A DNA stretch of 64,000 nt from Devosia sediminis (lineage in GTDB: Bacteria > Pseudomonadota > Alphaproteobacteria > Rhizobiales > Devosiaceae), in contig NZ_JAEKMH010000002.1 of NCBI RefSeq assembly GCF_016411825.1, forward strand, positions 248,001 through 312,000, given 5' to 3'. How positions within the stretch are numbered: position 1 is the first letter of the stretch; every line of letters starts with the position of its first letter. Of the stretch, positions 26,241-38,954 are shown piece after piece. The notes beneath the pieces were generated by a model, which saw only the letters and a program-made list of their open reading frames with translations, had not been told where the DNA came from and made no database searches. A program made the position numbers and the translations under genes.

Positions 26241-26329
26241 ATGTCACCCCGGTGCAGGCCGGGGTCCATCCTGAGATGCGTGCGTGGGAATGGATCTCAG
26301 AATGGATGCCGGCCTGCGCCGGCATGACA
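26241..26329. repeat. Extragenic palindromic repeat, family B (copy 2)
   Basis: ATGTCACCCCGG start, GATGCCGGCCTGCGCCGGCATGACA end, with a central GGATCTCAGAATGGA. It lies in the short leader between fsa and mrp. Confidence 0.82.
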
Positions 26330-26367
26330 CCGGATTTGTGGCGCTCTCGGCGCTCAACCAAGCCATC

Positions 26368-27426
26368 ATGGCCGATACCGATCTCGCAGCCCAGATAAAG
26401 GCCGCCCTTGCCGATGTGGAAATTCCCGGCGGCGGCGATCTTGCGACGTATGGCGGCCTGTCGGAAATCATCGTCACGCCTGGCGCCATCGCCTTCGCGA
26501 TAGCTGTAGCGCCTGGCATGGAAGCTGCCTTTGGGCCGGCCCGCGACGCGGCGCATAAGGCCGCCCAGGCTCTGGGCGGCAGCCGCAAGACCATGGTCTC
26601 GCTGACGGCGGAAAAATCGAATAGTCCAAAATTCGGCCATGGCGGCGTCCAGCCCCAGGGCAAGACGCGCGTCAATGGCGTCAGGAGAATCATTGCCGTG
26701 GGCTCGGGCAAGGGCGGCGTCGGCAAGTCCACCACCGCCGTCAATATCGCCCTGTCTCTGGCGGTAGAGGGCCTGAAAGTCGGGATTCTTGACGCCGATC
26801 TCTACGGCCCGTCGGTCCCCAAACTGCTCGGCATCGAGGGCAGGCCGGCCATCCGCGACGACGGCATTTTCACGCCCCACGAGGCCTTCGGTTTGAAGGC
26901 CATGTCGATCGGCTCCATGCTGGTGCCCGGGCAGGCCGTGGTCTGGCGCGGTCCCATGGCCACGTCGGGCCTCCGCCAACTGCTGCGTGAGACCGATTGG
27001 GGCGGGCTCGACGTCCTCATCATCGACCTGCCGCCGGGCACCGGTGACATCCATATCGCGCTCTTCCAGCAGACCGTGGTCGACGGCGTGGTCATCGTCT
27101 CGACTCCGCAGGACCTGGCGCTGATCGACGCGCAGAAGGCCATCGACATGCTGCGCCGCATGTCTGTGCCGGTGCTGGGCCTCGTCGAAAACATGAGTTA
27201 CTTCATCGCCCCCGATACCGGCCACCGCTATGACATCTTTGGCACCGGCGGCGCCGAGAAGGCCGCCGAACGGCTCGACATTCCCTTCCTCGGTCCCATC
27301 CCGCTGGTCATGTCCATCCGCGAAGGGTCTGATGCTGGCACACCGCCGGTTTCCTCTCAACCCGATGGCCCGGAAGCTGCCGCCTATCGGATGATCGCCC
27401 GCCGGTTGATCTCGGCAATTCCCTGA
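26368..27426 (+). CDS. mrp: Mrp/NBP35-family iron-sulfur carrier ATPase
   Basis: A 352-residue P-loop ATPase of the Mrp/ApbC family, which assembles or transfers Fe-S clusters. An N-terminal MIP18-like domain covers about 1-85 (DLAAQIKAALADVEIPGGGDLATYGGLSEI). The deviant Walker A loop is AVGSGKGGVGKSTTAVN; ILDADLYGPSVPKLLG and LIIDLPPGTGDIHIAL follow. The usual CxxC cluster-binding pair after ENMSYF is absent (FIAPDTGHRYDIFG), a state I believe is common in this alphaproteobacterial branch. The ATG at 26368 is used; an upstream in-frame ATG at 26284 would translate a palindromic repeat. Confidence 0.93.
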   Translation: MADTDLAAQIKAALADVEIPGGGDLATYGGLSEIIVTPGAIAFAIAVAPGMEAAFGPARDAAHKAAQALGGSRKTMVSLTAEKSNSPKFGHGGVQPQGKTRVNGVRRIIAVGSGKGGVGKSTTAVNIALSLAVEGLKVGILDADLYGPSVPKLLGIEGRPAIRDDGIFTPHEAFGLKAMSIGSMLVPGQAVVWRGPMATSGLRQLLRETDWGGLDVLIIDLPPGTGDIHIALFQQTVVDGVVIVSTPQDLALIDAQKAIDMLRRMSVPVLGLVENMSYFIAPDTGHRYDIFGTGGAEKAAERLDIPFLGPIPLVMSIREGSDAGTPPVSSQPDGPEAAAYRMIARRLISAIP

Positions 27427-27532
27427 CTTCCCTGCACGCCAAAGCCACTTATCCCCGCCCCATCACCTTGCCCATACTCTCCCTCATCAGCCGGGTGGAG
27501 ATGGGGTTGCAACGATCAACCGTCCGGCGACA

Positions 27533-27689
27533 GTCGGGAGCACCCTGAATCGTTACGGGGTGTGGGTCCGGGGTTGGGAAATTCCGGTGAGAGCCGTCCC
27601 TAGTGAACCCCCCTGCCAGAAATCCCGACGCCCCGAGACGTCTTGCGTCTCACTAAATTTAAACTCAGAGGTGAAAGGCGTCTCGGGGC
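27533..27689 (+). ncRNA. Structured RNA candidate with cobalamin-riboswitch-like core and alternative hairpins
   Basis: Paired arms seen: P1 GTCGGGA (27533-27539) with TCCCGAC (27623-27629); CACCC with GGGTG just inside; GGGGTT with GAACCCC (around 27580 and 27605); and GGGA with TCCC inside that. The core TTGGGAAATTCCGGTGAGAG and the 3' segment GCCAGAAATCCCGAC resemble the conserved cobalamin-riboswitch blocks (GGGAA..GGTGaaA and GCCaGgAgACC), but the canonical P6 block is not recognisable. P1 abuts GAGACG (27635-27640). This can pair with CGTCTC at 27646-27651 or, as an 11-bp stem, with CGTCTC at 27679-27684. Identification as a riboswitch is inference. Confidence 0.4.
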
Positions 27690-27739
27690 TTCCATCACTT
27701 GGCTTAAGGGAGTCCGCCAATTTGACGCACGTACGCCAT

Positions 27740-27766
27740 TTAAATCGATTGCTGAAATCGATTGCA
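27740..27766. promoter_or_regulatory. LacI-family operator candidate upstream of the GH1 beta-glucosidase
   Basis: TGAAATCGATTGCA (27753-27766) is a near-perfect palindrome centred on CG, the hallmark of LacI-family sites. A second AAATCGATTGC unit overlaps it at 27742-27752, 13 nt away. It lies about 65-90 nt upstream of the beta-glucosidase start. The regulator is not encoded in the window. Confidence 0.5.
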
Positions 27767-27829: not shown

Positions 27830-29143
27830 ATGTTCTCGTTTGACCGCCGGGATTTCGGTCCCGACTTTACCTTTGGCGTCGCCACGGCCGCCTACCAGAT
27901 CGAAGGCGGCCAGGGTGATGGCCGCGGCTCGTGCATCTGGGACACGTTCTCGGCCACGCCGGGCAATGTCCACAATGGCGATACGGGCATCAATGCCTGC
28001 AATCACTATGAGCTCTGGCCGCAGGACCTGGATCTCATTCGCGATGGCGGCTTCGACGCCTATCGCTTTTCCTTCGCCTGGCCGCGCCTCATTCCTGATG
28101 GTACCGGCCCCGTCAACCAGGCCGGCGTCGACTTCTACGATCGCCTGATCGACGGCATGCTCGAGCGCGGCATCAAGCCATATGCCACGCTTTATCATTG
28201 GGATCTGCCATCCACCCTGCAGGATCGCGGCGGCTGGATGAACCGCGACATCGCCAACTGGTTTGCCGACTATGCAGCCCTTGTCGCCAACAAGTTCGGC
28301 GACCGGCTGGAAGCCACGGCCACAATCAACGAACCCTGGTGCGTCGCCTTCCTGAGCCACTTCCTCGGCGTCCACGCGCCCGGTTATCGCGACCTTCGCG
28401 CCGCCGCCCGCGCCATGCACCATGTGCTGTTCGCCCATGGCACGGCCATCGATGCTCTGCGTGCCAACGGCGCAAAGAATCTCGGCATCGTGCTCAACCT
28501 CGAAAAGTCCGAACCGGCGACCGACAGCGAAGCCGACCGGCAAGCCTGCGATTTCGGCGACGCGCTGTTCAACCGCTGGTATCTGGGTGGCGTCTTCAAG
28601 GGCGAATACCCCGAAATCCTGACCAAGTGGCTCGAACCCTACCTGCCGGCCAACTACCAGGCCGATATGGAGGTGGTGTCCCGCCCACTCGATTGGCTCG
28701 GCATCAACTACTACACCCGCGGCCTCTACAAGGCGTCGAGCGAGCCCGGCCGGCCTGTCGAACAGGTCAAGGGCGACCTTGAGCGCACCGATATCGGTTG
28801 GGAAATCTACCCCAAGGGTCTCAGCGACCTCCTGGTGCGTGTGTCCAACGAATATACCAAGAAGCCGATCTACGTGACCGAGAACGGCATGGCCGAGGTC
28901 GAAGGCAACGACGATCCGCGCCGCGTGAAATATTACGAAGATCACCTCATGGCCGTGCTCGCCGCCAAGGCCGCGGGCGCCGATGTGCGGGGCTATTTCG
29001 CGTGGTCGCTGCTCGACAATTACGAATGGGCCGAAGGTTACAACAAGCGCTTTGGTCTCGTGCATGTCGACTACGAGACGCAGAAGCGCACGCCCAAGGC
29101 CAGCTTCCGCGCGTTCCAGGGCATGTTGCACAACAGCCGCTGA
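27830..29143 (+). CDS. Beta-glucosidase, glycoside hydrolase family 1
   Basis: A 437-residue GH1 enzyme that removes beta-linked glucose (or similar sugars) from cellobiose and aryl-glucosides. The family markers are FTFGVATAAYQIEGG at the N-terminus, YRFSFAWPRLIPDG, the acid/base TINEPW, NYYTRG, and the nucleophile in YVTENGMAE. The C-terminal FAWSLLDNYEWAEGYNKRFGLVHVDYETQKRTPKAS contains the glucose-binding Trp and Glu. No signal peptide, so cytoplasmic. GGAGGGGAA lies just before the ATG. A LacI-type operator and a structured RNA candidate lie upstream. Confidence 0.96.
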   Translation: MFSFDRRDFGPDFTFGVATAAYQIEGGQGDGRGSCIWDTFSATPGNVHNGDTGINACNHYELWPQDLDLIRDGGFDAYRFSFAWPRLIPDGTGPVNQAGVDFYDRLIDGMLERGIKPYATLYHWDLPSTLQDRGGWMNRDIANWFADYAALVANKFGDRLEATATINEPWCVAFLSHFLGVHAPGYRDLRAAARAMHHVLFAHGTAIDALRANGAKNLGIVLNLEKSEPATDSEADRQACDFGDALFNRWYLGGVFKGEYPEILTKWLEPYLPANYQADMEVVSRPLDWLGINYYTRGLYKASSEPGRPVEQVKGDLERTDIGWEIYPKGLSDLLVRVSNEYTKKPIYVTENGMAEVEGNDDPRRVKYYEDHLMAVLAAKAAGADVRGYFAWSLLDNYEWAEGYNKRFGLVHVDYETQKRTPKASFRAFQGMLHNSR

Positions 29144-38877: not shown

Positions 38878-38954
38878 GCCGCCTTAGCTCAGTTGGTTAG
38901 AGCGCTAGATTGTGGATCTAGAGGTCCTCCGTTCAATCCGGAGAGGCGGTACCA
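38878..38954 (+). tRNA. tRNA-His (GTG), A73, no encoded G-1
   Basis: A 77-nt cloverleaf: acceptor GCCGCCT / AGGCGGT, D arm with AGTTGGTTA loop, anticodon stem CTAGA/TCTAG with loop TTGTGGA (anticodon GTG at 38912-38914), T arm CTCCG-TTCAATC-CGGAG, discriminator A73 and encoded CCA. The base before G1 is T, so the usual tRNA-His G-1:C73 pair is absent. This variant is known in a group of alphaproteobacteria that includes Caulobacter and rhizobia. Confidence 0.95.

Follow-up and report, generated by a model that had tools for sequence, protein, structure and literature searches.

The window, a stretch of 64,000 nucleotides from Devosia sediminis, contains what is probably a complete copy of a multicopy Devosiaceae gene for a structured noncoding RNA, one that would be transcribed separately and act in trans. 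Comparison of copies within and between genomes confirms a real folded, RNA-like element that recurs as a dispersed repeat. An initial annotation, made from the letters of the window, had marked positions 27533-27689 as a compact RNA-like element. These positions cover the 3' two-thirds of a larger element, made up of a promoter-like block (27446-27478) and an RNA body; thus, the fold was real, but the promoter-like block and the first hairpin (27490-27528) had been missed. Homology among copies spans ~27447 to 27697 of the window. The parts of the window copy and its two neighbours are:

26284..27426 (+): upstream neighbour, gene for an Mrp-type P-loop NTPase (Pfam PF10609)
27446..27456 (+): conserved upstream promoter block CACTTATCCCC (sequence; pattern of the TTATCC-type block across copies)
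27473..27478 (+): -10-like hexamer CATACT, by resemblance to the consensus only; TATAAT or CATAAT in some copies
~27485..27692 (+): inferred RNA body, from CATCA to just beyond the long 3' hairpin (conserved span of copies)
27490..27528 (+): hairpin H1, with outer stem 27490-27494/27524-27528 and inner stem 27505-27509/27517-27521 (covariation)
27511..27516 (+): loop 1, AACGAT, complementary to loop 2 as a kissing loop (covariation)
27533..27539 (+): 5' strand of stem P1, GTCGGGA (sequence; alignment of 18 type A copies)
27541..27562 (+): hairpin H2, with stem 27541-27547/27556-27562 (covariation)
27549..27554 (+): loop 2, ATCGTT, partner of loop 1 (covariation)
27565..27617 (+): central arm within P1, with the GGGAAATTCCGGTGAGAG segment (helices 6-8; most variable part)
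27623..27629 (+): 3' strand of P1, TCCCGAC (sequence; type A alignment)
27630..27689 (+): long 3' hairpin abutting P1 (covariance model R1), the common mark of the family (covariance model, covariation)
27699..27720 (+): short terminal hairpin TTGGC..GCCAA, weakly conserved (by-eye comparison)
27830..29143 (+): downstream neighbour, gene for a GH1 beta-glucosidase (Pfam PF00232)

At the position of the terminal hairpin, other copies compared by eye have a CCGGAGG..CCGTCCGGC-like hairpin.

Fold, loop contact and promoter-like block

The + strand of the element folds at -78.2 kcal/mol, compared with -55.6 +/- 4.2 in 200 dinucleotide shuffles (z -5.4; no shuffle equal), while the minus strand gives a z of -3.2 with one shuffle equally good. 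Together with compensating changes in H1, H2, the central arm and the 3' hairpin, this bears out the compact fold that had been proposed. The letters on which the proposal was built are also in place: GTCGGGA at 27533-27539, TCCCGAC at 27623-27629, GAGACG at 27635-27640, CGTCTC at both 27646-27651 and 27679-27684, and the two strands of an 11-bp stem, GCCCCGAGACG (27630-27640) and CGTCTCGGGGC (27679-27689).

The copies designated type A form an alignment of 18 sequences, the window copy included, nearly all of them dispersed and with a mean column identity of 81%. Across the 64 pairs of the model 95.0% of cells are paired, and 23 pairs have changes on both sides, against 10.8 +/- 2.0 in shuffles of the same set (0 of 500 as high); sliding the partners out of register lowers pairing to 34.7-50.8%. 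Thus, the homologues do covary. The outer and inner stems of H1 are 98.9% and 100% paired, with one double-change pair each, and all seven pairs of H2 have changes on both sides. P1, which had been taken as the main stem, is indeed 91.3% paired, but its changes are one-sided only, with zero double changes, and 9 of the 18 copies lack its innermost pair (helix 4). Helices 6, 7 and 8 of the central arm are 97.6%, 81.9% and 72.7% paired. In the alignment the window copy retains all helices, both loops and the promoter block intact, contrary to the suggestion that it might be a decayed element.

The type A copies reveal little about the loops, since the loop-loop helix is 100% paired there but nearly invariant. 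A wider set comprises 36 distinct rows of three sequence types and covers the H1 inner stem, H2 and the loop-loop helix (17 pairs). Here 97.3% of cells are paired (28.9-50.2% in slid controls); the loop-loop helix is again 100% paired, and two of its five pairs have double changes. At its ends A-U is exchanged for G-C (23 and 13 rows) and U-A for C-G (22 and 14 rows), although the rows are related and do not represent independent events. When loop 1 sequences are grouped into 13 classes, matched complementarity is 102.8, compared with 74.7 +/- 4.8 for permuted partners (0 of 20000 as high); because the loop windows were picked by eye, this test leans towards a kissing loop, whereas the 36-row test uses fixed alignment columns with slid controls. 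For 7 of the 13 classes, a foreign loop 2 scores equal to or above the class's own. The loops were listed by eye since an automatic hairpin finder often took the loop-loop complementarity for a stem. The list covers 37 of 44 RNAs, leaving out L231, L232, L233, L244 and L173 (near-duplicates or of the same type) as well as L017 and L018, in which a clear loop pair was not found; the B-type alignment was excluded from the counts because its loop-2 columns are misaligned. By covariation, then, the H1 loop and the H2 loop form a kissing contact.

This contact also bears on whether the conserved entity is RNA at all. The 3' hairpin, the most widely recognised part of the element, is a fourfold GAGAC/GTCTC palindrome, as might be expected of a palindromic or cruciform protein-binding site in the DNA whose RNA-like fold is incidental. 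However, double-stranded palindromes leave the covariation between the loops of two separate hairpins unexplained, and the promoter block lies at a near-fixed spacing; a DNA-level element is very improbable.

The initial annotation had read the 3' domain as two mutually exclusive hairpins, the layout of a riboswitch with an expression platform. The fourfold symmetry of this domain allows either the long hairpin or two local hairpins to be drawn, with 95-96% pairing in each case. However, among 32 copies the long hairpin has double-sided changes at 9 of its 19 pairs, whereas the local hairpins have none at 12, even though 95.8% of their cells are paired. The energies differ as well, -33.6 kcal/mol for the long hairpin compared with -8.4 for one local hairpin and -11.5 for both. 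Thus, the two alternatives exist on paper, but covariation supports a single long 3' hairpin, and the expression-platform layout falls away. The long hairpin is not a typical intrinsic terminator, since no U-run follows it.

Upstream of the RNA body, comparison reveals what is best described as a conserved, promoter-like region belonging to the element itself. A TTATCC-type block located 19-21 bp before TANNNT, followed by the RNA start, is present in 26 of 29 home-locus copies (see below; L231 dropped as a near-duplicate, L258 of another genus added) and in none of 50 shuffled sets. Of 86 other elements, 40 show the pattern in the same strict form.

For the orientation of neighbouring genes, calls were based on third-position GC; these are approximate but reproduce both neighbours of the window copy, and they replaced a longest-ORF count that placed antisense ORFs on known genes. 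With these calls, a downstream gene could be assigned to 67 dispersed copies, of which 46 lie on the strand of that gene, a bias towards the same strand, and 21 face a gene on the opposite strand; for 7 more, none was callable. The 21 opposed copies rule out leader activity as the general role of the family.

A cis-acting leader or riboswitch for the downstream gene, responding to cobalamin or another ligand, was the reading first attached to the element. In its favour are the compact fold, the GGGAA..GGTG-like letters, the position on the same strand as the GH1 gene, and the majority orientation just given. Cobalamin riboswitches have a loop-loop contact, and the element resembles RF00174 in this contact and in those letters. 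Unlike RF00174, however, the element is dispersed among unrelated genes, with flanks that vary by place, and its local hairpins, without compensating change, give no support to an expression platform. In covariance-model searches, RF00174, RF01482 and RF01689 have no match at E<=10; what the element region does yield at that limit is four unrelated families, all scoring well under their thresholds and none a cobalamin family. With no Rfam riboswitch at that E value, and with a dispersed repeat behind a conserved promoter-like block, a shortened or variant ligand-binding RNA finds no backing either. Thus, a cobalamin riboswitch was rejected, and a cis leader of any kind is disfavoured as extremely improbable. 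At gathering scores neither the window element nor the element at twelve diverse loci matches anything in Rfam 15; the hits at that level are a tRNA (38878-38951), the sole one in the window, and a DUF3800-VII RNA, both separate from the element.

Copies across genomes and their spread

A DNA search of the window's own genome reveals parts or the whole of a ~250-bp unit at nine further places, with 75-85% identity. Model R1, a covariance model of the 3' hairpin built from 32 sequences, detects 12 distinct places in this genome (G000, with the window at C9:248001-312000) at E<=0.001, the window included, and three weaker ones to E 1. Since the 3' hairpin is palindromic, many places score on both strands, and raw match counts (1 to 31 per genome, both strands counted) exceed the copy number. 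R1 matches 60 of 75 genomes (57 of 68 good ones) of Devosia, a genus of soil bacteria. At family level, 68 of 136 genomes have matches, spread over 4 of 16 genera; in one of these genera two genomes match only weakly. Of 297 genomes sampled from the order, 6 match at E<=1e-5, and all are Devosiaceae. Among named genomes, a type-specific pattern occurs only in Devosia elaeis, D. aurantiaca and D. oryzisoli (17 stretches). In G061, G063, G094 and G095, several R1 matches lie less than 300 bases from contig ends, so assemblies may be interrupted at the repeats, and the copy numbers of these genomes may be lower bounds.

The site between mrp and the GH1 gene is empty in ten relatives (G024, G091, G008, G092, G004, G003, G001, G015, G033 and G068), in which the flank matches lie 13-54 bp apart rather than 292-345 bp as in the window; seven of the ten empty sites are readable in sequence. 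By parsimony, the window copy would therefore be a gain in this lineage. A GH1 leader was rejected because the element is missing at this site in relatives and 21 of 67 dispersed copies face an opposite-strand gene; this copy probably does not regulate GH1. Just 5' of the GH1 gene, at window positions 27742-27765, lies AAATCGATTGCTGAAATCGATTGC, which is conserved in relatives lacking the element and is perhaps the operator of GH1.

The flanks of the element differ between places. Several dispersed places are nevertheless common to species on both flanks (L006 with L099; L042 with L088; L057 with L046 and L179). Identity across the RNA body is highest within a genome (0.77; 211 pairs), compared with 0.67 for the same place in different genomes (98 pairs) and 0.64 for all others (3094 pairs), a likeness that reflects either concerted evolution or repeated replacement. 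The RNAs of L011 and L041, both in G028, are nearly identical, whereas their promoter blocks differ. Ten copies (L005, L007, L008, L039, L088, L089, L104, L105, L268 and L276) have a palindromic insert, a nested second repeat of very roughly 90 bp of palindromes (AATCNCTCC..GGAGNGATT, GCGCTAYGCGCG-type) inside P1 or H1.

The chief rival to a functional RNA gene arises from this pattern of spread: a selfish, non-autonomous mobile element, a bacterial analogue of SINEs or MITEs, whose dispersed copies have no host function. A source noncoding RNA gene would be copied together with its promoter, and the fold would matter only at the source or for copying; recent copying of such a source could yield both the structural conservation and the homogenisation. 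The presence/absence polymorphism at the window site (one place; ten relatives empty), the range of raw matches per genome, the within-genome homogenisation, and the truncation of some copies or their further palindromic insert are all consistent with it. However, the places common to species indicate that copies persist, and type A copies keep 95% of their pairs at 81% mean column identity. Inspection by eye of copies and empty sites revealed neither terminal inverted repeats nor a target duplication, and no transposase attached to copies was noticed. Overall, a selfish element is rather unlikely.

The home locus and its protein

Comparison of flanks identifies one place common to twelve copies from twelve genomes, although the type of RNA there varies by species. 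At this home locus, an uncharacterised small-protein gene lies upstream of the RNA on the same strand. Thirty such loci were fetched; in 29, an R1 match is present 3' of the protein gene on the same strand, and the thirtieth (L237) ends at a contig edge. The 3' hairpin starts 138-393 bp past the stop codon in 27 of the 29 loci and 542 and 1090 bp past it in the other two. In many home loci the 3' end of the protein gene extends into the promoter block, and the protein then ends in TYPRLR or similar. Since the home locus is genus-wide, 6S RNA was suspected and rejected: RF00013 has one match above cut-off per genome in 10 of 10 genomes, and it lies elsewhere (in G000 at C13:26063-26220, away from element copies).

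The home-locus protein (for example L225:1570-2139 and homologues, a Devosiaceae orphan family; alignment A3) has ~150-215 residues, with invariant A-x-R-H-E, Q-L-G and P-x-x-R-L motifs in an alignment of 33. It has no family assignment in Pfam or NCBIfam and no strong one in PHROG; the hits, for example RMF (E 0.03-0.08), all fall below threshold. Its predicted fold consists of four helices and a beta hairpin (mean pLDDT 83.8). A Foldseek search with this fold gives no match at E<=0.001, and the best VIA-align rows (Z 6.5 to the mycobacterial Bpa helical bundle) possibly reflect merely a common arrangement. With no significant match to its predicted fold, the home-locus protein is a putative RNA binder.

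The protein is detected in 50 of 75 Devosia genomes. Counted as raw genomes, kinship ignored, 50 have protein and RNA, 10 have RNA only, 15 have neither (several of the RNA-less genomes being incomplete), and none has the protein only. Of the 52 protein matches listed, 7 are flagged with in-frame stops, some of which probably arise merely because the match runs beyond the end of the gene. The ten RNA-only genomes have no detectable protein, and a profile search was also negative in the three sampled. In six of these genomes, several copies have lost neither the promoter block nor the loop match; others are truncated or have the palindromic insert. The intact copies indicate that the protein is not needed everywhere. 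In a 397-genome sample of the order, the only strong protein match outside the genus is in G273, of a sister genus, where the RNA again lies downstream; two further matches are weak (E about 0.005).

A short, helical-looking ORF with a weak match to the protein profile (E 0.006) is present at ~1400-2500 of L261 (G455), from another genus of the family. It is followed by the same ACTTATCCCC block and by a different hairpin-rich stretch lacking an R1 match; from its sequence, L261 is possibly a distant version of the protein-RNA system.

When a small-protein gene lies beside a structured RNA, as in 29 of 30 of these loci, and the RNA is present in every one of the 50 genomes carrying the protein, an RNA antitoxin (type III-like or AbiF-like) comes to mind. 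The protein would be toxic, the RNA would neutralise it by binding, and the dispersed copies would be extra antitoxins. There is a precedent in AbiF with RCd22, where, according to PMC12373285, an RNA beside one protein gene neutralises the protein and acts both in cis and in trans. The layout is the same; however, the Devosia protein, with no family match, has no link to Abi or other toxin families, and many RNA-only copies are located elsewhere. One conserved place across many species is also unlike mobile toxin loci, and an antitoxin is quite improbable.

A working model and its relation to known systems

In the model that we favour for the noncoding RNA gene, the home place would be ancestral, and the RNA-only copies elsewhere would derive from it by spread within genomes. 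Each copy would be transcribed from its own promoter and fold into a compact RNA. This RNA would act in trans, most likely as a protein-binding scaffold or decoy; the leading candidate for the partner is the home-locus protein. Within each genome the copies would be homogenised. Transcription, action in trans, the binding of a protein and the choice of partner are what we infer from the comparisons. A stronger form of the model is offered tentatively: the home pair may seed a dozen-plus uniform RNA-only genes that act jointly through a protein partner, which would amount to a new Devosiaceae RNA-protein system.

Multicopy trans-acting RNAs of the CsrB/RsmY type titrate a protein. As with them, a genome has several genes for the RNA and one for the protein; unlike them, the element persists without its candidate protein in ten genomes. 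ERIC, bcr1 and Correia elements are dispersed stem-loop repeat families of bacteria. The Devosia element is likewise short, multicopy, intergenic, able to fold as RNA and variable in copy number; the promoter block, the covarying kissing-loop fold, the long 3' hairpin and the home locus are described here for the Devosia element alone. PMC2267715 describes 92 stem-loop families of bacterial genomes, so the kind, a dispersed structured repeat, is already known; what looks new is that a promoter block and a loop-loop fold occur together with a home protein gene. No description of the element was found in the accessible parts of the literature on Devosia repeats, riboswitches, sRNA or wider topics, and within that scope it looks like a previously unrecorded family of folded RNA genes. 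It has gone without an Rfam 15 match despite a dozen places in one genome and its presence in most genomes of the genus.

The element is a bacterial example of a folded RNA, with a covarying loop-loop contact, that behaves as a dispersed repeat, evolves in concert and can be traced to a home gene. It thus offers a way to test if repeats of this type are selfish copies or working RNA genes, and it points to an orphan protein family as the candidate partner. At one locus of G028 (L181), a second structured RNA is located ~0.8 kb from an element copy: a DUF3800 protein gene (PF12686; 28-648) is followed directly, on the opposite strand, by a DUF3800-VII RNA (RF02967; 647-730), which is above its gathering score and is a separate gene.
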